Shown here: piece by piece, positions 3,196 to 14,093 of the stretch
Layout of the letters: each line of letters begins with the position of its first letter
Numbering within the stretch: position 1 is the first letter of the stretch
Assembly (NCBI GenBank): GCA_026709325.1
Contig: JAPOTF010000125.1
Location: 1-46,709, forward strand
DNA from: Roseovarius sp.
GTDB lineage: Bacteria > Pseudomonadota > Alphaproteobacteria > Rhodobacterales > Rhodobacteraceae
Direction: 5' to 3'
Length of the DNA stretch: 46,709 bases
Notes under the pieces: model-generated
Seen by the model: the letters and a program-made list of their open reading frames with translations, nothing else
Database searches by the model: none
What the model was told of the DNA's origin: nothing
Translations under genes and position numbers: made by a program

Positions 3196-3824
3196 GAATA
3201 TCTTAAAACTCCGTATTATTATTGCCGCCTTCGAAAGGGAAACCAAAATATTGATAGCGTGAAGTCAGACATATTTAAAGCCATAATTGGTGTTGTGACA
3301 CAATATTACAACACAATAAATGGAATTAAATTGCAGTAGCCTTATTATCCTATGCAATTCAGTGCATCTTTTCTTGTCGCCAATGTTCGCGTGCGCGGCT
3401 GACGTTTTCAATATTAATGCATTTGGCGATTGCGCGGGATGCGAACTATGATAAAATCTCGGAACTCGATCATAATGTCCCTAATTCCGCCATGAGACGG
3501 AATTCAATGAAACATTGAATTTTGCCGCTAAATATTGCACCGTGCAATTGACGTCATCTTGGGAAATTGGATGCCCGCAATGCCATTTTAATCGCCATTT
3601 TGCCTCAGCCTCGATGTGTCGCCAAGCATCGTGATCACATTGATTTCATATTCACGGCTTGCGAATTCTAAAAGCCGTTCATGATGCAAAAACGAAACCA
3701 GCCGCAGAGCCGCGTCGAACAGTTTGAGGTTGCGTTGCAAATCGCGCAATGATAGCCGGGTTAAAGCCAATTGGGGAAGTTACACGCAAGGCGGAAAATC
3801 CATATATCAGCAACGGAGAGCATC
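3196..3824. other. Intergenic region between mlaA and ridA
   Basis: This is a divergent gap of about 630 bases that is AT-rich near mlaA. It must hold the promoters of mlaA (minus) and ridA (plus). A 60-codon minus-strand frame at 3588-3770 has no recognisable motif and no strong ribosome-binding site, so it is not called as a gene. No RNA gene, repeat or riboswitch was recognised. Confidence 0.5.
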
Positions 3825-4286
3825 ATGGGCGAATATGAACAAAAACTAGCTGAAATGAATATCGTTCTTCCCAATGCGCCACTGCCTGCGGCAAATTACG
3901 TCCCATATGTTCAAATTGGCGATATGCTGTACGTCTCCGGACAGCTTCCAAAAGATGGCGACAGGCTTCTAACAGGTAAGCTTGGGGACGACATTGATAT
4001 ATCCCAGGGAGCCGAGGCGGCAAAAATATGCGCAATAAATTTGCTTGCACAGGTAAAAGCCGCCTGCGACGGTGATCTCGACAGGTTAAAGCGTGTCGTC
4101 AAACTTGTCGGCTTCGTAAATTCCACACCGGATTTTACAGAACAACCTCTAGTGGTGAATGGTGCGTCAGACCTCCTTGGAGAAGCTCTCGGGGAAGCGG
4201 GCAAGCATGCGCGAGCCGCCGTGTCATCACCCTCTCTTCCATTTGGCGTTGCCGTGGAGATTGAAGGAACATTTCAGATTTCATGA
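3825..4286 (+). CDS. RidA family (YjgF/YER057c/UK114) protein
   Basis: RidA-family proteins are small cytosolic trimeric enzymes. The archetype hydrolyses reactive enamine/imine intermediates released by PLP enzymes. This 153-residue protein has the family's features: the early strand YVQIGDMLYVSGQLP, the LLAQVKAACDGDLDRLKRVVKLVGFVN segment and the C-terminal RAAVSSPSLPFGVAVEIEG, which holds the position of the usual catalytic Arg (the RAAV here). The length and the extra N-terminal residues match the longer RidA subgroup common in Alphaproteobacteria rather than the 128-residue E. coli type. The start at ATG 3825 is preceded by GGAGAG. Its stop overlaps the next gene by four bases, beginning a coupled chain. 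Confidence 0.88.
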   Translation: MGEYEQKLAEMNIVLPNAPLPAANYVPYVQIGDMLYVSGQLPKDGDRLLTGKLGDDIDISQGAEAAKICAINLLAQVKAACDGDLDRLKRVVKLVGFVNSTPDFTEQPLVVNGASDLLGEALGEAGKHARAAVSSPSLPFGVAVEIEGTFQIS

Positions 4287-5062
4287 ACCGTCTGCCGGAA
4301 TCTTTTCTGAACAGGCCACTGGCCCATAGGGGCCTTCATAATCATTCTGAAGGAATACCGGAAAACTCACTAGCCGCGATCAAAGCGGCCATTCAAAAGG
4401 GATATGGAGTTGAAATAGACCTTCAATTGTCTGCCGACGGCCGGGCAATGGTTTTCCATGACGACGAAATGGAGCGAATGACGGGGATGCAAGGTTGCAT
4501 CCGGGAATGGACGGCAAAGCGTCTGAACGGCATCTATCTGAACGGTGGTTGTGAACAAATTCCCGCATTGGCAGAAGTGCTCGATATTGTTCAGGGGCAA
4601 ATTCCTCTTTTGATTGAATTAAAGGACCAGCAAGGCATGATGGGGATGACCTGCGGCACTCTTGAACAAGCGGTAGCTGCCGCGCTTGAACATTATTGGG
4701 GACCGACGGCCGTGATGAGCTTCAACCCTAACATGATTTATCTCTTATCCGATATCGCTCCCCACCTGACATGCGGTTTGACAACTTGCTCGTTCAATAA
4801 ACCCGACTGGCCCGCAATGGAAATCAAAGAACTTGACCGATTAAGGAACATTGCCGACTACGACCATTCGACAGTGACATTCATAAGTCATGAAGCAAGC
4901 GATTTAATGTCACCACGTGTTGCAGAGTTAAAGAAAGCCGGCGCGCAAATCCTTTGCTGGACAGTCCTAACACATGAACAGGAGAAGGTCGCTCGAAACG
5001 TTGCGCAAAACATTACATTCGAGGGATTCCTTCCGGATATCCCCGCACTGTTCCAAGCTTGA
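4283..5062 (+). CDS. Glycerophosphodiester phosphodiesterase (GDPD)
   Basis: The predicted enzyme hydrolyses glycerophosphodiesters to sn-glycerol-3-phosphate and an alcohol. It has no signal peptide, so it is probably cytosolic (UgpQ-like). The GDPD TIM-barrel motifs are present: HRGLHN near residue 15 (catalytic His), PENSLAAIKAAIQKGYGVEIDLQLSADG, which contains the metal-binding E-x-D, then VFHDDEMERMTG (second catalytic His), and later LLIELK. The 259-residue length is normal. ATG overlaps the ridA stop (ATGA), which implies translational coupling. The ridA-GDPD-acyltransferase order recurs in Alphaproteobacteria as far as I recall, though the functional link is unclear. Confidence 0.88.
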   Translation: MNRLPESFLNRPLAHRGLHNHSEGIPENSLAAIKAAIQKGYGVEIDLQLSADGRAMVFHDDEMERMTGMQGCIREWTAKRLNGIYLNGGCEQIPALAEVLDIVQGQIPLLIELKDQQGMMGMTCGTLEQAVAAALEHYWGPTAVMSFNPNMIYLLSDIAPHLTCGLTTCSFNKPDWPAMEIKELDRLRNIADYDHSTVTFISHEASDLMSPRVAELKKAGAQILCWTVLTHEQEKVARNVAQNITFEGFLPDIPALFQA

Positions 5063-5096
5063 AACCGCTTGACCGGAAATTACATTTGTTAACAGG

Positions 5097-6284
5097 ATGG
5101 ATGGCGGCACATTTAGTATAAAATTACATGGAGACCTGAAGGCCATCCACGAAAAGGAGTGGGACTGCTGCGCATGCCCGGAAACCGCCGATGGAGGGCG
5201 TCCAGAGGATCCGTTCACAACCTACCGGTTTCTCAAAGCTCTTGAAGACAGCGGATCAATAGGCCCAGGGACTGGGTGGCAGGCATATTATATTACTGTT
5301 GAACATGATGGAGAAACAATCGCCTGTGCACCTCTCTATGCCAAAGGCCACAGTCAGGGGGAATATATTTTTGATCACGTGTTTGCCCATGCCTACGAAT
5401 CTGCAGGGGGAAAATACTATCCGAAATTCCAGATTGCGGTACCCTTTACGCCAGTTACCGGCAGAAGGTTTCTAACCCGACCGGATTATGAAAACGCCGG
5501 AAGAGCGGCACTTGCACAGGGATTGCTGCAATTGGCGGACAAATATGAAATGTCTTCCGCCCATGTTACCTTTTGCACTTCTGAAGAGGCCCGCTGGGGC
5601 GCCGAAAGAGGATTTTTGCCTCGCCTTACACATCAGTTCAGATGGCTGAACAACTCATATTCGGATTTTAACGATTTTCTGGCGGGACTCAGTTCACGCA
5701 AGAGAAAAAACATCAAAAAGGAACGAGATCAGGCGCGCGGATTCGGCGGCAGGATTGAAGTTTTTCATGGCGGGGATATCCGGGAAGAGCACTGGGACGC
5801 CATGTGGCGATTCTATCAGGACACATGTGCAGCCAAATGGGGCAACCCATATCTTACAAGAGACTTTTTCATCATCGCACGGGAAACGTTGAAAGATGAC
5901 ATGGCTCTGATCATTGCATCACGGGAAACGGAATTGGTTGCAGGCGCGATGCATGTGATTGGACGCAACGCCCTTTTTGGCCGTTATTGGGGATCAAAGG
6001 AATATTATCCTTCAATGCACTTCGAACTTTGCTATTATCAGGCAATAGACTATGCCATAGCCCTTGGTCTGGAACGGCTTGAGGCCGGCGCTCAGGGAGG
6101 TCACAAGCTTGCGCGCGGCTACATGCCCTTCGAAACACATTCTCTGCACTGGTTCAGAAACAAGGGATTTTCAAATGCGGTTTCCGAGTATCTTGAAAGG
6201 GAACATTCCGCAGTTTCTGAAGACATGGAAGTGCTAACGGCCTGGGGACCATTCAGGAAAACCGAATACAAGGAGCAGATATGA
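5097..6284 (+). CDS. GNAT-fold acyltransferase of the DUF482/peptidogalycan family
   Basis: This 395-residue protein belongs to the COG3146 (DUF482, FemAB-like GNAT fold) group, whose substrates are unproven. Visible family blocks are [17 protein letters not shown] near residue 40, [61 protein letters not shown] near 200, [26 protein letters not shown] and [14 protein letters not shown] near 340. No signal peptide or membrane span is seen. It follows the phosphodiesterase after 34 bases and overlaps the next gene by four bases, so it belongs to the same transcription unit. Confidence 0.85.
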
Positions 6285-6583
6285 ATGAACTGGAAATGGA
6301 CAGAATGCCTCGGCAATTGCTTGAAGCTGGATGGGAACGGGTTGAAGGGCGTGATGCAATCCGAAAAACATTTGTGTTTAAATCCTTCATTGAGTCATTC
6401 GGCTTTATGACCCTTGTGGGATTCTGGGCGGAAAAAATGAACCATCATCCGGAGATGCACAATGTATACAACAAGGTGACGTTTGAACTTACAACGCATG
6501 ATGCAGGCGGATTAACTGAAAAAGACATCAAACTGGCCAATAAGATTGAGGATTGCGCAACTGGATCATTTCAACCGATTTAA
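6281..6583 (+). CDS. phhB: Pterin-4a-carbinolamine dehydratase
   Basis: This 100-residue PCD/DCoH-fold enzyme dehydrates 4a-hydroxytetrahydrobiopterin formed by aromatic amino-acid hydroxylases. In Alphaproteobacteria it may also serve molybdopterin or folate-type pterin metabolism. The active-site signature is complete: [11 protein letters not shown] with the paired histidines near residue 52, a Tyr in VYNKV, and the conserved [11 protein letters not shown] near residue 75. The ATG overlaps the preceding stop (ATGA). No phenylalanine hydroxylase gene is in the window, so the pterin substrate is not fixed by context. Confidence 0.9.
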
Positions 6584-6597
6584 TGAAAGGCGACCAG

Positions 6598-8703
6598 ATG
6601 AACGATAACGGAAAAAAGATTAGAGATTTTGTCTGGGATTTGAAAGAAGGACAAATCGTCACCTATGGACATATCGCGGAAAAATTAGAGGTGAAAGGGG
6701 CGCAGGGCGTTGGCGCTGCCATCAAGGCTGGATTTGACAATGTGCGGAATCCCGATTTTCCGTGTTGGCGTGTCATAGATGCAAATTTCCACCCGACGGA
6801 AGCAATGGGGCCCGGGGCGGCCAAGGAGAAACTTAAAAGCGAGAATTGGGAGTTTTTAGGCAATACCATTCATCCGTCTATGAGACATCTTGTGAATTGC
6901 GGAGATTCTGCCGGCAATGACGACTTTAAAAATTTACCGGAATGGGATCTTTCCGATTTATACAAATCCGAAACCGATCCGCAATTGGACCGAGATTTTC
7001 AATGGCTTGCTTCGGAATGCCGGGAATTTGCCGAGAAATACAAAGGGAAACTTGCGAAACTTGATGCAGAGGGTTTGCTTGAATGCATTAAGCGCAAGGA
7101 AAAAATCGACAATATATCTTCAAGGATAATGTCATTTGCCTTTCTTCGTTATGCGCAACTCTCAACCTCTCCGGAAAGAGCCAGCTTCAATACCGGCTGC
7201 ACGGAAAAAGTGAACGGCTCCACAACGCCTCTTGTGTTTTTTGGACTTGAGATCAACAGCCTTGAAGAAGAGCAACTAAATGAGATGCTGGATGAAAATC
7301 GGGAACTGGCGCGCTATGCGCAAGTATTGCGCAGAATGCGCGCATACAAGCCCCACCAGCTATCCGAGGAGCTTGAAAATTTCCTGCATGACATGAACGC
7401 GGTAGGAGCCGCCTGGTGCAATCTTTTTGATGAAACCATGGCAGGCCTCACCTTCAGATTAGACGACAGGGAAATGGGTCTTGAGTCCGCCCTTAATTTG
7501 CTAACCGATCATGATGAAGGCAAGCGTGAAGCCGCATTTCGAGAACTTGCGCGGATTTTCCGTGAAAATATCCGCATATTCTCCCGCATTCACAATACGT
7601 CAATCAAGGAAAAAGAGATTATAGACCGCTGGCGCAAGTTGCCCACCGCGCAGAGCGGGCGGCATCTGAACAATGACGTGGAACCGGAAATCGTTGAAGC
7701 GTTGCGTGATTCCGTTGTTAAAGCCTACCCTGACATCTCTCATCGGTATTATGAGCTCAAAAGAAAATGGATGGGCAAAAGGAAATTGCAAATTTGGGAT
7801 CGCAATGCCCCTCTGCCACTGGAAAGCGCCAAAACAATCTGTTGGGATGAGGCTGTTGAAACTGTTATGCAGGCTTATTCAGCGTTTGATCCCAAATTTG
7901 GAAAACTTGCCGAACCGTTCTTTAAAAATTTCTGGATTGATGCGGGAGTCAAAAACGGAAAAATGCCGGGAGCATTTGCCCATCCCACAGTCACAGATGT
8001 CCATCCCTACCTTATGCTTAACTATCTTGGAAAACCGCGTGACGTTATGACACTGGCTCACGAGCTGGGGCATGGCGTTCACCAGGTGCTGGCGGCAGGG
8101 CATGGCGAGTATTTGTCTGATACTCCGTTGACACTTGCTGAAACGGCAAGCGTTTTCGGGGAAATGTTGACATTCCAGAAGTTGCTCAATGAAACGGGTT
8201 CCAAAGACGAGCAAAAGGTTCTTCTTGCCGGCAAGGTTGAGGACATGATCAACACTGTAATCCGTCAAATTGCCTTTTACGACTTCGAATGCAGGCTGCA
8301 TTCCGCTAGACGGGAACGGGAACTTACGCCAGATGAGATTGGCGAAATCTGGATGTCGGCAATGAAAGACTCGCTTGGTTCTGCATTTGAGTATGCAGAC
8401 GGTTTCGAGGTTTTCTGGTCCTATGTACCGCATTTTATACACTCGCCGTTTTATGTCTATGCGTACGCATTTGGTGACGGTCTGGTGAATGCTCTTTACG
8501 CTGTCTACAGGGAAAGCCCCGATGGCTTTCAGGACAAATATATCGAGATGCTTAAAGCCGGCGGTTCAAAACATCACAAGGATCTGCTTGCTCCATTCGG
8601 ACTGGATGCATCCGATCCCGAGTTCTGGAGCAAGGGGCTATCGGTCATCTCTGATTTTATTGACCGGTTGGAGGCTTTGGAGGCCAATCAAAATCAAAGA
8701 TGA
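6598..8703 (+). CDS. Fusion: MGMT/ATL-like DNA-binding domain + oligoendopeptidase F (M3)
   Basis: A single uninterrupted 701-codon frame joins two families. Residues about 6-92 match the C-terminal domain of O6-alkylguanine alkyltransferases: a winged-helix segment (VTYGHIAEKL), then the active-site loop PCWRV at 55-59. Ordinary MGMT has PCHRV and alkyltransferase-like proteins have PWHRV. Here Cys56 is kept but the relay His is Trp, and the usual Arg finger is not seen. From about residue 115 (LPEWDLSDLYKSE) the protein is a full-length PepF/M3B oligopeptidase with the zinc motif HELGH at 488-492 and the downstream LAETASVFGEM glutamate. The ATG at 6598 follows GAAAGG at good spacing; an ATG at 6583 overlaps the previous stop. 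The gene ends the ridA-to-phhB chain. The peptidase should be active; the DNA-lesion role of the N-terminus is inference. Confidence 0.88.
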   Translation: MNDNGKKIRDFVWDLKEGQIVTYGHIAEKLEVKGAQGVGAAIKAGFDNVRNPDFPCWRVIDANFHPTEAMGPGAAKEKLKSENWEFLGNTIHPSMRHLVNCGDSAGNDDFKNLPEWDLSDLYKSETDPQLDRDFQWLASECREFAEKYKGKLAKLDAEGLLECIKRKEKIDNISSRIMSFAFLRYAQLSTSPERASFNTGCTEKVNGSTTPLVFFGLEINSLEEEQLNEMLDENRELARYAQVLRRMRAYKPHQLSEELENFLHDMNAVGAAWCNLFDETMAGLTFRLDDREMGLESALNLLTDHDEGKREAAFRELARIFRENIRIFSRIHNTSIKEKEIIDRWRKLPTAQSGRHLNNDVEPEIVEALRDSVVKAYPDISHRYYELKRKWMGKRKLQIWDRNAPLPLESAKTICWDEAVETVMQAYSAFDPKFGKLAEPFFKNFWIDAGVKNGKMPGAFAHPTVTDVHPYLMLNYLGKPRDVMTLAHELGHGVHQVLAAGHGEYLSDTPLTLAETASVFGEMLTFQKLLNETGSKDEQKVLLAGKVEDMINTVIRQIAFYDFECRLHSARRERELTPDEIGEIWMSAMKDSLGSAFEYADGFEVFWSYVPHFIHSPFYVYAYAFGDGLVNALYAVYRESPDGFQDKYIEMLKAGGSKHHKDLLAPFGLDASDPEFWSKGLSVISDFIDRLEALEANQNQR

Positions 8704-8978: not shown

Positions 8979-9860
8979 TTATGCTTTTTCCTGATCAAGT
9001 TCTCGGATTCGATCAGCGAGTTTTTCCATAATTCTAACTTCTATCTGCCGTACGCGCTCACGGCTGATTTTTAACTGGCGTCCGATTTCATCCAAAGTAA
9101 CAGGTGGTTCATCAAGCCTTCGCTGAGTGAGAATTTTTTTCTCGCGCTCATTTAGAATTCCCATTGCTTCGCCAAGCAAGCTCTTCCTATAATCCAGTTC
9201 GTCCTGTTGTTCGAATTTAGCGGCATGATCGGCATCATCATCCGCAATCCAATCCTGCCATTCAACTGTGGATCCGTCATCGTTTCCAATACGGGCGTTA
9301 AGCGACGCATCACCGCCTGACAACCTTTGATTCATCGAAATTACATCATTTTCTCCAACGCCAAGGTCACGGGCAATCCTTTTTACATTCTCCGGGCGCA
9401 TTTCTCCATCTTCCAAGACACCAATTCTGGCCTTGGCTTTTCGCAGATTGAAAAACAGCTTTTTCTGTGCGCTTGTGGTTCCGAGCTTAACAAGCGACCA
9501 ACTGCGCAGAATATACTCCTGGACACTTGCTCGTATCCACCACATTGCGTATGTGGCGAGGCGAAACCCCTTGTCCGGATCGAAGCGCTTTACCGCCTGC
9601 ATCAAGCCCACATTGGCTTCGGAAATAATTTCGGCAGCTGGTAGCCCGTACCCCCGATATCCATTGGCAATTTTTGCCGCAAGACGTAGATGCGATGTAA
9701 CCAATTTGTGGGCGGACTCTCTGTCTTGATCCGCAACCCATCTTTTGGCCAACATGTACTCCTCTTGAGGATCAAGCAGCGGAAATCTGCGTATCTCTTG
9801 TAGATAATTATTCAATCCGGACTCTGGCGATGGTACCGGAAGGTTTGCATAACCGCTCAT
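8979..9860 (-). CDS. rpoH: RNA polymerase sigma-32 factor RpoH
   Basis: This alternative sigma factor directs core RNA polymerase to heat-shock and stress promoters. The 293-residue protein has region 1.2/2 (NNYLQEIRRFPLLDPQEEYMLAKRW), the core-binding YGLPAAEIISEANVGLMQAVKRFDPDKGFRLATYAMWWIRA and the RpoH box QKKLFFNLRKAK, which distinguishes RpoH from other group-3 sigmas. The C-terminal region-4 helix-turn-helix is VTLDEIGRQLKISRERVRQIE. A strong GAGGAAAG precedes the ATG. It lies downstream of rluD on the same strand, in the order often seen in Alphaproteobacteria. Some members of this group have two rpoH copies; only one is in this window. Confidence 0.95.
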   Translation of the reverse strand: MSGYANLPVPSPESGLNNYLQEIRRFPLLDPQEEYMLAKRWVADQDRESAHKLVTSHLRLAAKIANGYRGYGLPAAEIISEANVGLMQAVKRFDPDKGFRLATYAMWWIRASVQEYILRSWSLVKLGTTSAQKKLFFNLRKAKARIGVLEDGEMRPENVKRIARDLGVGENDVISMNQRLSGGDASLNARIGNDDGSTVEWQDWIADDDADHAAKFEQQDELDYRKSLLGEAMGILNEREKKILTQRRLDEPPVTLDEIGRQLKISRERVRQIEVRIMEKLADRIRELDQEKA

Positions 9861-9996
9861 GGTCTTTCCTCCTCAACGCTCAACCGAATTACATATAGGC
9901 ACTCTCAATTTATTTTCAAATTCACCGCCTGAAAATGTTATGGTCTGTTGCAGTAATGTGAAAATTTCTTTCTTCATAAACTTATGCTGATTTGTT

Positions 9997-11028
9997 TCAG
10001 TGTTGGCTTTTTATCGTTTCAGCAAGATTTGACATGTCATCGGGCACAGGTGCCGAAAACCGCATCCACTTCCCATTCACCGGATGCTCAAATCCAAGTT
10101 CTGAAGCATGAAGAGCTTGCCGGGAAAACCCGTCCACCATAGACATAACCGCCTCGGAAAACGCTTTTCGAGGAAGTCGGCGGCGAGTGCCATAAACCTG
10201 GTCACCAATCAGGGCATGACCCGCATAAGCCAGATGAACACGTATCTGGTGGGTTCGACCTGTTTCAAGACGACATTCCATCATTGATATAGCGGGCGGA
10301 TTGCCGAATATCTCCAAAACGCGAGTTCTTGTCACGGCATTTCTTCCACCGTCAAACACCACGGCCTGACGTTTTCGGCAATTTCGATGTCTTGCGATCC
10401 GCGTTGAAATTTTCATCACATTCCCGGCCTCAAAATCAATGCCCCGCAATCCTCGCAGTCGGGCGTCACCGGCATAGGGAACTCCGTGCGCAAGACAAAG
10501 ATACCTGCGTTCCACGCTGTGTGATTTGAACTGCTCCGCAAGGCCGCCATGAGCAATTTGCGACTTTGCCGCAACAATCACGCCACTGGTGTCCTTATCT
10601 ATTCTGTGAACTATGCCGGGCCTTTTTTCTCCGCCAATCCCGGAAAGGGAATCACCGCAATGCGCCATAAGGGCATTAACCAGAGTACCATCGCGATTCC
10701 CGGGAGCGGGATGAACAACAAGTCCCGCGCGCTTGTTTAAAACAATTATTTCACGATCCTCATATAATATATCCAATGGTATTTCCTGTGCCATCAGGGT
10801 CGTTTCACACAGCTCGGGAATGCTGATTTCAATAATATCCGCCTCGGCCACCTTAGCCGATATGTCTGTAGCAACATCGCCGTTTAACTTAACATGCCCG
10901 TTGGCAATCAGCTTTGCCAAACGAGTCCTTGACAGTGTCGCCTCTTCTGGGACATCCCTTGAAAGCGCCTTATCAAGGCGTTGCGGCGGATTTGCCGCAA
11001 TTTGGAATTTTAGCCGGGTGGCGCTCAT
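9997..11028 (-). CDS. rluD: RluA/RluD family ribosomal pseudouridine synthase
   Basis: The enzyme isomerises uridines of 23S rRNA (helix 69 in the RluD archetype). An S4-like RNA-binding domain occupies residues about 15-75 (TLSRTRLAKLIANGHVKLNG), followed by the catalytic domain with IVHRIDKDTSGVIVAAK near 140, which carries the conserved catalytic Asp. The C-terminal LETGRTHQIRVHLAYAGHALIGDQVYG is the second hallmark. The 343-residue length fits RluD. Its ATG (11028-11026) overlaps the ATG of the divergent DUF6476 gene in a CATG, so the two messenger 5' ends must overlap. Confidence 0.92.
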   Translation of the reverse strand: MSATRLKFQIAANPPQRLDKALSRDVPEEATLSRTRLAKLIANGHVKLNGDVATDISAKVAEADIIEISIPELCETTLMAQEIPLDILYEDREIIVLNKRAGLVVHPAPGNRDGTLVNALMAHCGDSLSGIGGEKRPGIVHRIDKDTSGVIVAAKSQIAHGGLAEQFKSHSVERRYLCLAHGVPYAGDARLRGLRGIDFEAGNVMKISTRIARHRNCRKRQAVVFDGGRNAVTRTRVLEIFGNPPAISMMECRLETGRTHQIRVHLAYAGHALIGDQVYGTRRRLPRKAFSEAVMSMVDGFSRQALHASELGFEHPVNGKWMRFSAPVPDDMSNLAETIKSQH

Positions 11029-11341
11029 GACAGAAAATCCCCAAACGCATCAGCCGGTTGACCCGAACCTCGTAAAATACCTTCGTGCAATGGTAACGGT
11101 CCTTACAACAGTGATGATTGTCGGATTCTTAATTATTGTATTTCTGTTTGTCACTAAATTTTCCAGCGCCTTCAGTCCCTCACTGCCCGATTCAATCACT
11201 CTTCCCGACGGTCAAAAACCAACAGCCTTTACTCAGGGAGACAACTGGTTTGCGGTTGTAACCGAAGATAACAGCATTGTTATATTCGACAGAAAAACCG
11301 GAGAGCCACTCCAGATAATGAAAATACTCGGCACTCCATAA
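11027..11341 (+). CDS. DUF6476-type single-pass membrane protein
   Basis: This 104-residue protein has an N-terminal Pro-rich start (MTENPQTHQPVDPN) and one strong membrane span (residues about 24-45, VTVLTTVMIVGFLIIVFLFV). A periplasmic-side domain follows, rich in short strands (FAVVTEDNSIVIFDRKTGEPLQ), reminiscent of a propeller blade. Small proteins of this type sit divergently beside rluD in Rhodobacterales, and the architecture agrees with DUF6476 as I recall it. The function is unknown. The frame is open further upstream, but the ATG at 11027 fits the family N-terminus and the divergent overlap with rluD. Confidence 0.75.
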   Translation: MTENPQTHQPVDPNLVKYLRAMVTVLTTVMIVGFLIIVFLFVTKFSSAFSPSLPDSITLPDGQKPTAFTQGDNWFAVVTEDNSIVIFDRKTGEPLQIMKILGTP

Positions 11342-11952
11342 AACCCTCCTCCGATTATATATCTTGATGGTTTTATGTTCTGACTTCGTCTCGAAATTGT
11401 TAATGTAAGCGTTTGGATATCCATATTTAATGATGGATACGATACAAGCCGGATGGAGTTCTAAATCGCTCGGAACTCATCTTAAAACGAATGGGAGTTA
11501 GATGGGGAATCGGCGCATTTGATGAATTTAATCCTCAAATCTTCTGTAATTATCGAATAAAAACTGAATGGGTTAAAAGCATTGACAAGGATGCAGATTG
11601 ATCAATCCGCTCTATTGCCCTGTGTATTCGTCTCCTGAACGACATTAGCGCTTCGCGGTCTTCAGGATATTCGTTGATGTTTTGTACACCTTTCATGTGC
11701 CCCTCAAAGACACCTCAATTGCGCTTAATGAGTTCTGGCATGGCACAGATATTCCGATATGCGGTCAATGTCTTTCGATACTATATGCTTGATCGGGATA
11801 TCAAAGCCTGCGCTGTAAAATTACTCAACATAAATTGCCAGGACGGTAATGGCAAATATTCTGCAACCTGATGATTTCATTACATCAAAGTTTTGGATTC
11901 CGCCCAACCTGCTGAAGTTATATCAGCTATAGTCACATGGCAATTTTAATGA
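11342..11952. other. Intergenic region, nothing recognised
   Basis: About 610 bases lie between the DUF6476 gene and tRNA-His. Short frames exist (a 65-codon one at 11674-11871) but show no domain, no good ribosome-binding site and no coding bias. No terminator with a clear T-run, repeat or RNA fold was recognised. Confidence 0.4.
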
Positions 11953-12029
11953 TGGTACCGCCTCCCCGGCTCGAACGGGGGACCTCTTGATCCACAATCA
12001 AGCGCTCTAACCTACTGAGCTAAGGCGGC
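11953..12029 (-). tRNA. tRNA-His (GTG), A73 type without G-1
   Basis: The minus strand folds as a 77-base cloverleaf with encoded CCA. Acceptor GCCGCCT pairs with AGGCGGT (first pair G1:U72), the D arm is GCTC/GAGC, the anticodon stem CTTGA/TCAAG encloses TTGTGGA with anticodon GTG, and the T arm CCCCG/CGGGG encloses TTCGAGC. The discriminator is A73 and the base before position 1 is T, not G. Most bacteria encode G-1 and C73. The A73, no-G-1 form is a documented peculiarity of many Alphaproteobacteria and co-evolved with a divergent HisRS. This supports the taxonomic placement. Confidence 0.95.
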
Positions 12030-12153
12030 ATTGGAACAAACACTAACCGCAACAGTTATCCATTGCAAGCATTCTCAAACACCCGACCACAAGAATTCTT
12101 GCCAAACTTTTCAAAGATCATTACCTGCCTCTGTAACATTGCTGGAGACTGTC

Positions 12154-12342
12154 ATGGGCATAAACACCGAGCGAAACATTGATGCAAGTCTGCGAATTGG
12201 CCCTACCGATAGAGGGATGGTCAGGTTGTTTGTTGTCGCCGACGGCAAGGAAATACCTATGGATTTCGACCCTGAAGACGCGCGTGAAATCGCCGAGGAG
12301 ATCCTTGCTTCCGCCAAGACCGCCGCAAATGGCAAATCATAG
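12154..12342 (+). CDS. DUF6324 family small protein
   Basis: This 62-residue acidic protein starts at an ATG preceded by GGAG. The sequence runs MGINTERNIDASLRIGPTD, then a strand-rich part (GMVRLFVVADGKEIPMDF), then a helix (DPEDAREIAEEILASA). This matches the pattern of the DUF6324 proteins found next to mmcB in Rhodobacterales as I recall it. The function is unknown. The frame is open upstream to 12031, but those residues would begin directly beside the tRNA-His and look non-coding. Its stop overlaps the 3' end of the convergent mmcB gene by six bases. Confidence 0.75.
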   Translation: MGINTERNIDASLRIGPTDRGMVRLFVVADGKEIPMDFDPEDAREIAEEILASAKTAANGKS

Positions 12343-12792
12343 TTTAGGATCAATGTGCATTTGCAGACGCATCGCCGCATGACGGGCAAATTTACGAACG
12401 AGCACATTGCGTCTGGCTGCGGATAGTTTTCGCCTGGAAGCCATGCGGATGATTTCGGCCCCGTAGGAATCGGCAATCATTATTCCCGTGTGTTCAGGAA
12501 GAAGATCCACGGGAAACTCCAGATCAACCGCCCAGAAATACCCATCGCACCAATCCAGATATTCATGCCACTTGTTGTCGGACATGAAATCCGCCCGACC
12601 CGATTTGCATTCGACAATCCATAATTCTCCCTTTGGACCAAGCGCCATTACATCAACTCGCCTGCCCTTTGCAGGTGCAAACTCATCAATGGTGGCGTAA
12701 TTGCAACTGCGCAGGTATCGGCAAACGCCACGCATCAAAAGCCGGCCCGTTTGCTGTCCGTTGCTTTGGAAATGGTAGTTCTGATCGATCAT
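12337..12792 (-). CDS. mmcB: MmcB-family DNA repair putative endonuclease
   Basis: MmcB is a mitomycin-C/UV resistance protein first described in Caulobacter, with a PD-(D/E)XK nuclease-like fold. The 151-residue protein keeps the expected core: GRRVDVMALGPKGELWIVECKSG, with Asp47 and the E-x-K of VECKSG around residue 63, then the D-F-x-x-D-x-K-W segment (DFMSDNKWHEYLDWCDGYFW) and PVDLLPEHTGIMIAD. The last 40 residues are basic. It is convergent with the DUF6324 gene with a six-base overlap. Caulobacter mmcB is LexA-regulated, but no clear GTTC-N7-GTTC or GAAC-N7-GAAC box was seen just upstream here. Confidence 0.85.
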   Translation of the reverse strand: MIDQNYHFQSNGQQTGRLLMRGVCRYLRSCNYATIDEFAPAKGRRVDVMALGPKGELWIVECKSGRADFMSDNKWHEYLDWCDGYFWAVDLEFPVDLLPEHTGIMIADSYGAEIIRMASRRKLSAARRNVLVRKFARHAAMRLQMHIDPKL

Positions 12793-13164
12793 GAATTTTC
12801 ACTCCAGCGGATGCGCCGTTTGCGCAAATTGATACCCGCCCCAAATGCAGCTCCAAAAAACGATGAACATGGGCGCTTTAGATTAACCTCCCATAGCATA
12901 GATCAATTAATGGCATCGAATATACTACTCATCGCACTCTGTAGATCGCATCAATAATATTTGCTCGCGATGAACCAGTTCACGAGATATCCTGTTTTTG
13001 CACCGCCGGATCAAATGACGTTCCATCAAACTGGTAATGGAATGAGGTTGACGGCAGATATATCGTCCTTTGCTTTTTAATCTGCAATCTTGAGAATGAT
13101 AGTGGTGACTGCCGACATCAACTTGTGCGTTTTTCACAACATTGTTCAGGCTCTTGTTTATGGA
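12793..13164. other. Non-coding stretch upstream of mmcB
   Basis: About 370 bases lie between the mmcB start and the end of a broken gene. A 70-codon minus-strand frame (12925-13137), rich in His, Arg and Cys, lies directly downstream of the broken gene but has no family I recognise. No RNA fold or repeat was identified. It presumably holds the mmcB promoter. Confidence 0.4.
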
Positions 13165-13497
13165 TTATTCCCTGATGGCTAAGGGTGTCGGACGTTTCGC
13201 GCGATCTCTCATGTCCGAATGAATGGCCCCACCATTAAACTTCCACCATTCGGATTCGAGTCTTTGCATGGCTGCGCCATGTTCACTGGCTTCTGCAGAT
13301 TTGCGGTCTGCGAATATGACAAGTCACCGCGAAAAAATTCCGCCGCTTTCATATTTGGAATTTATTGCTTTTCCCACTGCTCGCGGATGTGCAACTCCGA
13401 GTTCCTGCGCGACATACCCGCAAGTGACGACTTCCCCATATGCTAAATTCGACACGAATTCCATTATCTCCCTGCCTCTGCCTTTTTCGATGGGCAC
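13165..13497 (-). pseudogene. Broken stand-alone MGMT/ATL-like gene
   Basis: Reading the minus strand from GTG 13497 to TAA 13165 gives 110 codons with one in-frame TGA at 13326-13324. The first part has the winged-helix block YGEVVTCGYVAQELGVAHPR with AVGKAI. The second part runs HGAAMQRLESEWWKF then GGAIHSDMRD. Both halves align, with one two-residue gap, to the N-terminal domain of the peptidase fusion at 6598 (YGHIAEKL, GVGAAI, GAAKEKLKSENWEFLG, TIHPSMR). The TGA aligns with the Trp of the fusion's PCWRV loop, and the preceding two residues are Ser-Arg instead of Pro-Cys. Neighbouring genes use TGA as stop, so recoding is unlikely. A decayed paralogue, probably through TGG to TGA plus other changes, is the best reading. 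Confidence 0.6.
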
Positions 13498-14093
13498 TTC
13501 TTCCTCATTCTCTTTTCCGGACCCATTGTTCAGGGCATGACTGAAATGCCAACGCTAAACGATTTCGGCCGCGGCAGGTACCAGGATTTCGACCCAACAC
13601 TCGTCAATTGGCGTTGAGAAACAAAAAGCAACGATCCCAGCAAGTGGCGCAAACCGGCATACGCAACCGGATTTAAAAACATCAAATGCTTGCATGATTT
13701 TTTCACATGAATTATACGGCCATGTTAATGGCGGGTTCTGCCCTTCACGTGCCAGGTAAATATTCCAGTGGCCTTAATCAATTCCAAGGGAGTTGGCTCT
13801 GTTCGGATCGTGGTCCGATTACCTGACGCCCACCTGTTAAAGCAGGTCCTTGGGAATTAAAATCCACACGGATGCGCGCGGTTCCGCCAGTTTTATTCCC
13901 ATCAAAAGACCGGGCAAATCGAAACCGAAAATATGCATTCGAAAGTCTGGAAAATGATCCTTCAAAACATGGCGACCATTTTCCGAACGATATGAAAACG
14001 GGAAATATCTGGTTGCCACCAGTCGCGGGTTTATGGCATTTTTTGGCCTGCCGGACTATCAAATCGACTGTAATGCAATTTGAGGATAACCTG
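13498..14093. other. Region upstream of ribB
   Basis: About 600 bases lie before ribB. The ribB frame is open back to 13872, but those 74 codons lack family similarity and the family N-terminus fits ATG 14094. On the minus strand, 13837-14019 has a compact open frame (GFDLPGLLMGIKLAEP) that could be a remnant of a gene; it has no start signal and no family. I looked for an FMN (RFN) riboswitch ahead of ribB and did not find its conserved blocks. Confidence 0.4.

Follow-up and report, generated by a model that had tools for sequence, protein, structure and literature searches.

The window analysed here, a stretch of 46,709 nucleotides from Roseovarius sp., contains one frame of 701 residues without an internal stop (6598-8703, forward strand) that joins an ATL-like domain to a complete M3 family 3 oligoendopeptidase. 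We consider this probably to be a lineage-specific fusion of a housekeeping peptidase with a non-catalytic domain of DNA-binding type, in which coupling of the two halves would not have been selected. The features of the gene and its surroundings are:

3771-6583, forward strand: run of presumed RidA, GDPD, GNAT (395 aa) and PCD genes, directly upstream of the fusion
6586-6590, forward strand: ribosome-binding-site-like AAAGG, 7 bases upstream of ATG 6598
6598-6888, forward strand: ATL-like domain, residues 1 to about 97 (Pfam DNA_binding_1, AlphaFold model and fold match to Atl1 with DNA)
6760-6774, forward strand: loop PCWRV (CCG TGT TGG CGT GTC), residues 55-59
6889-6933, forward strand: junction, residues 98-112 (leader comparison)
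6934-8703, forward strand: M3 family 3 oligoendopeptidase, residues 113-701 and the stop codon (TIGR02290)
8059-8073, forward strand: zinc-binding motif HELGH, residues 488-492
8979-11028, reverse strand: downstream of the peptidase, genes presumed to encode an RpoH-like sigma factor (8979-9860) and an RluD-like pseudouridine synthase (9997-11028)
13204-13479, reverse strand: broken ATL-like copy sharing 38% identity with the domain of the fusion; the loop is lost and a TGA interrupts the frame there

Three Pfam domains passed their curated cut-offs in the 701-residue protein: DNA_binding_1 (residues 7-79), Peptidase_M3_N (218-286) and Peptidase_M3 (302-681). DNA_binding_1, the part of O6-alkylguanine transferases (AGTs) that binds DNA, scored 33.2 bits in the full protein and 38 bits with the domain alone, against a cut-off of 27. 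The codon-usage score, trained on trusted genes of the window, was 0.245 bits per codon for the ATL-like domain and 0.252 for the M3 half; it fell below zero in the remaining forward frames, and one reverse frame gave a lesser signal. Since codon usage is equal on either side of the junction, both halves look like genuine coding sequence of the host genome. The AAAGG has a duplex energy of -3.0 kcal/mol, within the range of other genes in the window, and translation from ATG 6598 would yield one 701-residue chain. Single-sequence structure prediction of the full-length protein gave an unusable model (pLDDT 37.5), and we therefore make no claim on the relative placement of the two halves.

The AlphaFold model of residues 1-100, based on 26 sequences, had a mean pLDDT of 93. 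Its closest solved structure is that of S. pombe Atl1 with DNA (3gx4; Foldseek E 9.3e-5, Z 12.3, 94 residues, 2.1 A), which ranks ahead of the AGT structures (Z 5.8-11.7). Cys56 lies at the AGT nucleophile position and Trp57 at that of the relay histidine, so the Cys-His-Glu relay of AGT/MGMT proteins (PCHRV) is absent from the fused domain, which also missed the cut-off of TIGR00589 (ogt; 17.1-21.8 bits vs 46.4). Because the relay histidine is replaced by Trp57, AGT chemistry is not expected, and by its residues the ATL half is non-catalytic as a transferase and predicted to be incapable of moving alkyl groups. The E. coli ATL reportedly gained no transferase activity after a Trp to Cys change (PMC10779285), indicating that a Cys at the nucleophile site is insufficient for activity. 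Tyr23 of the TYG motif is retained, as is every position invariant in the subfamily, and Gln36 aligns to the arginine-finger site of many AGTs and ATLs, where the ordinary Firmicutes AGTs aligned alongside also have Gln. The ATL half probably still binds DNA via its winged helix.

The peptidase is complete over residues 113-695. It scored above the cut-off of TIGR02290 (M3_fam_3; residues 115-694, 587.3 bits vs 561.7) and matched the PepF equivalog TIGR00181 below cut-off (304 bits vs 490.55). The HExxH motif (HELGH) is followed by E515 (bases 8140-8142), which we take from M3 family knowledge to be the expected third zinc ligand, and both are invariant in the M3 alignment. The nearest free-standing M3 relatives are 60-68% identical, and a scan of viral contigs, run for alignment depth, gave no M3 relatives. 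M3 enzymes act on short peptides, and the M3 half is predicted to be the host's single housekeeping oligopeptidase, which would cleave short peptides in a zinc-containing cavity as its relatives do. These results bear out the preliminary description of this DNA, which had read the gene as one frame carrying an MGMT/ATL-type domain, in which Trp replaces the relay His, and a complete M3 zinc peptidase, and had called for the comparison with MGMT and ATL on DNA in which Atl1 ranked first.

A query with the whole protein found matches in 48 of the 61 genomes of a sample of relatives and in 190/289 genomes of a class sample, the host being included in both. Among the matches listed, the alignments from other genomes mostly begin at residues 90-114, and none of the peptidase matches listed from other genomes in the two samples spans residues 1-55. 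The same two-domain order was found, among the matches listed from the 61 and 289 genomes, in the host only; within the samples searched, the ATL-M3 fusion thus appears to be known from this genome alone. Homologues encoded by separate genes predominate, which the preliminary description had named as one part of what would mark the fusion as an artefact.

The gene lies at a break in synteny. In nearly all of the 11 relatives examined, the RidA-GDPD-GNAT-PCD run (putative names, PCD being presumably pterin-4a-carbinolamine dehydratase-like) is found at a separate chromosomal place and ends at the PCD gene, and the order M3-RpoH-RluD occurs in several relatives. In the host the two runs sit side by side around the ATL-like domain, and since they are normally separate we attribute their adjacency to a rearrangement that joined them. 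We propose that this rearrangement would have placed the RidA-GDPD-GNAT-PCD run, along with an accessory ATL-like gene, upstream of the M3 gene, and that the ATL-like gene would have fused in frame with the 5' end of the sole housekeeping M3 family 3 oligoendopeptidase gene, the ATL half being carried along as a non-transferring domain of DNA-binding type. The repeats near the junction are short, chance-like pairs that give no sign of a mobile element.

The broken ATL-like copy lies 6.5 kb from the fusion, within 2.8 kb of sequence (11029-13871) where the coding signal is low, and indicates that the ATL-like domain was present more than once in the region. That the unfused copy decayed while the fused copy is intact is weak evidence of selection on the latter, and the retention by the fused copy of its subfamily invariants and of normal coding bias would fit such selection and speaks against a fusion without selected coupling. 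The same may be said of the occurrence of the domain at the N terminus of two other proteins (see below), on the basis of which the fusion may not be accidental. The host also encodes an Ada-like protein of the ordinary kind, in which an AraC-type part is combined with an AGT part (loop PCHRA), and is therefore not dependent on the fused domain for alkyl transfer.

A one-genome-per-species search recovered proteins whose relay His is replaced by Trp from Rhodobacteraceae (L039, L040, L041, L043, L046, and also L034) and from Actinobacteria (L042, L047, L048, L052, L053, L054, and L063). The loop is PWWRV in every rhodobacteral relative recovered and in the actinobacterial proteins L042, L047, L048, and L052-L054, and the window protein is the sole Cys bearer found. 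In a tree of 31 domains, built on about 90 columns, with moderate support and with long branches flagged by the program, the Trp-for-His proteins group into a single clan, set against the PxHRV and PCYKV proteins (support 92/84), and the window domain falls among its rhodobacteral members (89/90), where it pairs with the broken copy (91/91). Since TGT (Cys) and TGG (Trp) differ by a single base, PCWRV is most simply a derived variant, and Cys56 has more probably arisen anew than been kept as a nucleophile. Its retention as an AGT nucleophile was judged less likely, all nearest relatives carrying Trp there. The suggestion that PCWRV might represent a third functional type did not hold in that form, since the loop is not isolated and belongs to a Cys-bearing member of an otherwise PWWRV group. 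A further loop variant, PCYKV, in which His is replaced by Tyr, was seen in two ATL-like proteins of Bacillota (L049 and L056).

A profile of this group matched strongly in 5 of the 395 family genomes; the match in G183 is to an ordinary PCHRV protein, which leaves the P[CW]WRV form in 4/395, host included. An order-level profile search (E 0.001) gave mostly weak matches common to ordinary AGTs, which were left out of the counts, and the wider phylum sample yielded stand-alone PWHRV or PWYRV proteins only. In one relative (L040; G029, MAG Aestuariivita CAR2_bin_10; 4986-6440) a PWWRV domain leads a 485-residue protein whose remainder has a sub-threshold match to HEPN (PF05168; 14 bits vs 22) and is otherwise unassigned in function; its gene adjoins one that we take to encode a MobF-like relaxase. 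In another (L041; G472, MAG Rhodobacteraceae CAR3_bin_1; 4986-6290) the domain leads a 435-residue DUF2971 protein, downstream of which are genes that are presumably SMC/PHP-like ATPase and AlbA-like; this neighbourhood appears to be an accessory, perhaps defence-type, cluster. The domain stands alone in L043, L034/L046, and L039. In two Rhodobacteraceae a stand-alone PWWRV gene keeps a conserved place next to a metallo-beta-lactamase-fold gene (L046:4968-6516 and L034:176-1800).

Genes near the P[CW]WRV domain include those we take to be relaxase-like, transposase-like, helicase-like and SMC-like ATPase genes, and by its distribution the domain is rare, accessory and modular. A reading as a defence system was rejected, as PADLOC (E 0.1) matched no model to the window fusion or to the L040 and L041 fusions. 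Among the viral contigs and phages searched there was no relative of the domain, and the plasmids searched gave one weak match, from Paenibacillus, so a phage or plasmid origin is without support.

Among the alternatives to a fusion without selected coupling, we regard as unlikely a functional coupling in which the ATL half would dock the peptidase on damaged or modified DNA, for example for trimming peptides after the breakdown of DNA-protein crosslinks. The closest fold being a DNA-bound ATL, the retained subfamily-invariant residues and the fusion of the domain to other C-terminal partners in related bacteria are consistent with such a role, as is the placement of the free M3 gene in two relatives (L101 and L109) next to genes that are presumably like those for an ATP-dependent DNA ligase and the exonuclease associated with it. 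Against it are the lack of a second M3 fusion among the matches listed from the 61- and 289-genome samples, the coincidence of the join with a rearrangement, the use of short peptides by M3 enzymes, and the composition of the domain, which is not basic (12 K+R vs 13 D+E). The DNA-tethered or damage-sensing peptidase raised in the preliminary description accordingly finds no support beyond the fusion itself, neither a second fusion nor a conserved linking neighbourhood having been found in the samples, and the join coinciding with a rearrangement.

Free-standing M3 relatives have a variable leader of about 20-25 residues ahead of LPEWDL, and residues 104-112, approximately, of the fusion protein (SAGNDDFKN) resemble the end of this leader, which places the junction at about residues 97-103. 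Two candidate internal starts, ATG 6880 (M95) and GTG 6892, are found close by, and it is conceivable, though improbable, that two products are made, an ATL-like protein from ATG 6598 and the peptidase from one of these starts, with the read-through fusion minor or incidental. M95 lies 18 residues from LPEWDL, compared with the 20-23 at which relatives start, and is possibly a remnant M3 start; an ATGA context is also present, and genes of the upstream run overlap likewise. However, there is no stop between the halves, ATG 6880 has no ribosome-binding site (+2.0 kcal/mol) and that of GTG 6892 is weak. Moreover, Met-Arg is seen in the broken paralogue too at the site matching M95, and M95 may consequently belong to the ATL domain.

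It is doubtful that the fusion is an artefact in which a base error or false join merged two adjacent genes during sequencing or assembly. The source genome is a draft assembly of 196 contigs, the fusion was found in one genome only and the join sits at the synteny break, all of which would suit an artefact. Nevertheless, the flanking M3 and GNAT genes are single-copy in the host and resemble their counterparts in the family, codon bias does not change across the junction, the nearest paralogue of the domain lies on this contig too, on the side of the peptidase, and the frame of the fused domain agrees with that of this broken paralogue to residue 96. We give little credence to the proposal that the P[CW]WRV clan is its own functional type of ATL, reading damaged or modified bases and forming a mobile targeting module at the N terminus of unrelated proteins (M3, DUF2971 and HEPN-like), which here would direct a peptidase to DNA.

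The literature searched, which covered few subscription journals, gave no mention of 'PWWRV', nothing linking oligoendopeptidase, fusion and methylguanine, and nothing linking DUF2971 and defense. If real and expressed, the protein would be an ATL-type fusion with a non-endonuclease partner, a kind absent from the review consulted. The ATL-M3 fusion gives a module of a known kind a new partner and is of modest interest alone. The better lead is the P[CW]WRV clan, which turns up repeatedly at the N terminus of accessory proteins in Rhodobacteraceae; binding of PWWRV proteins to alkylated or modified DNA would bear on ATL-type recognition outside nucleotide excision repair.

Like the ATL proteins S. 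pombe Atl1, E. coli ATL and V. parahaemolyticus 2kif, the fused domain is a single winged helix of AGT type, with the fold of the AGT C-terminal domain and no AGT N-terminal domain, a fold match over the whole domain, conserved TYG and RV motifs and an incomplete Cys-His relay. Unlike them, it is joined to a peptidase and has Trp for the His that they keep; in ATLs the nucleophile Cys is replaced and the loop is typically PWHRV, whereas it is PCWRV here and PWWRV in close relatives. ATLs characteristically bind DNA that carries O6-alkylguanine and leave the lesion unrepaired. With AGT/MGMT/OGT proteins it shares the fold, the Tyr of TYG and a Cys at the nucleophile position, but it lacks their N-terminal domain, relay His and GYxGG lid. 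The PWWRV proteins of Rhodobacteraceae and Actinobacteria belong to the same clan and share the Trp for the relay His, but have Trp rather than Cys at the first position and are alone or fused to DUF2971 or HEPN-like partners. The M3 half resembles other family 3 oligoendopeptidases (TIGR02290; solved relative PDB 2qr4) in being full-length and above cut-off, with HELGH and the region of the third ligand invariant, and differs from them in its N-terminal ATL-like extension. The AGT-EndoV and ATL-EndoV fusions of archaea set a precedent for the AGT/ATL domain as a fusion module (PMC10779285), although they pair it with a DNA repair endonuclease and the window protein pairs it with a peptidase.
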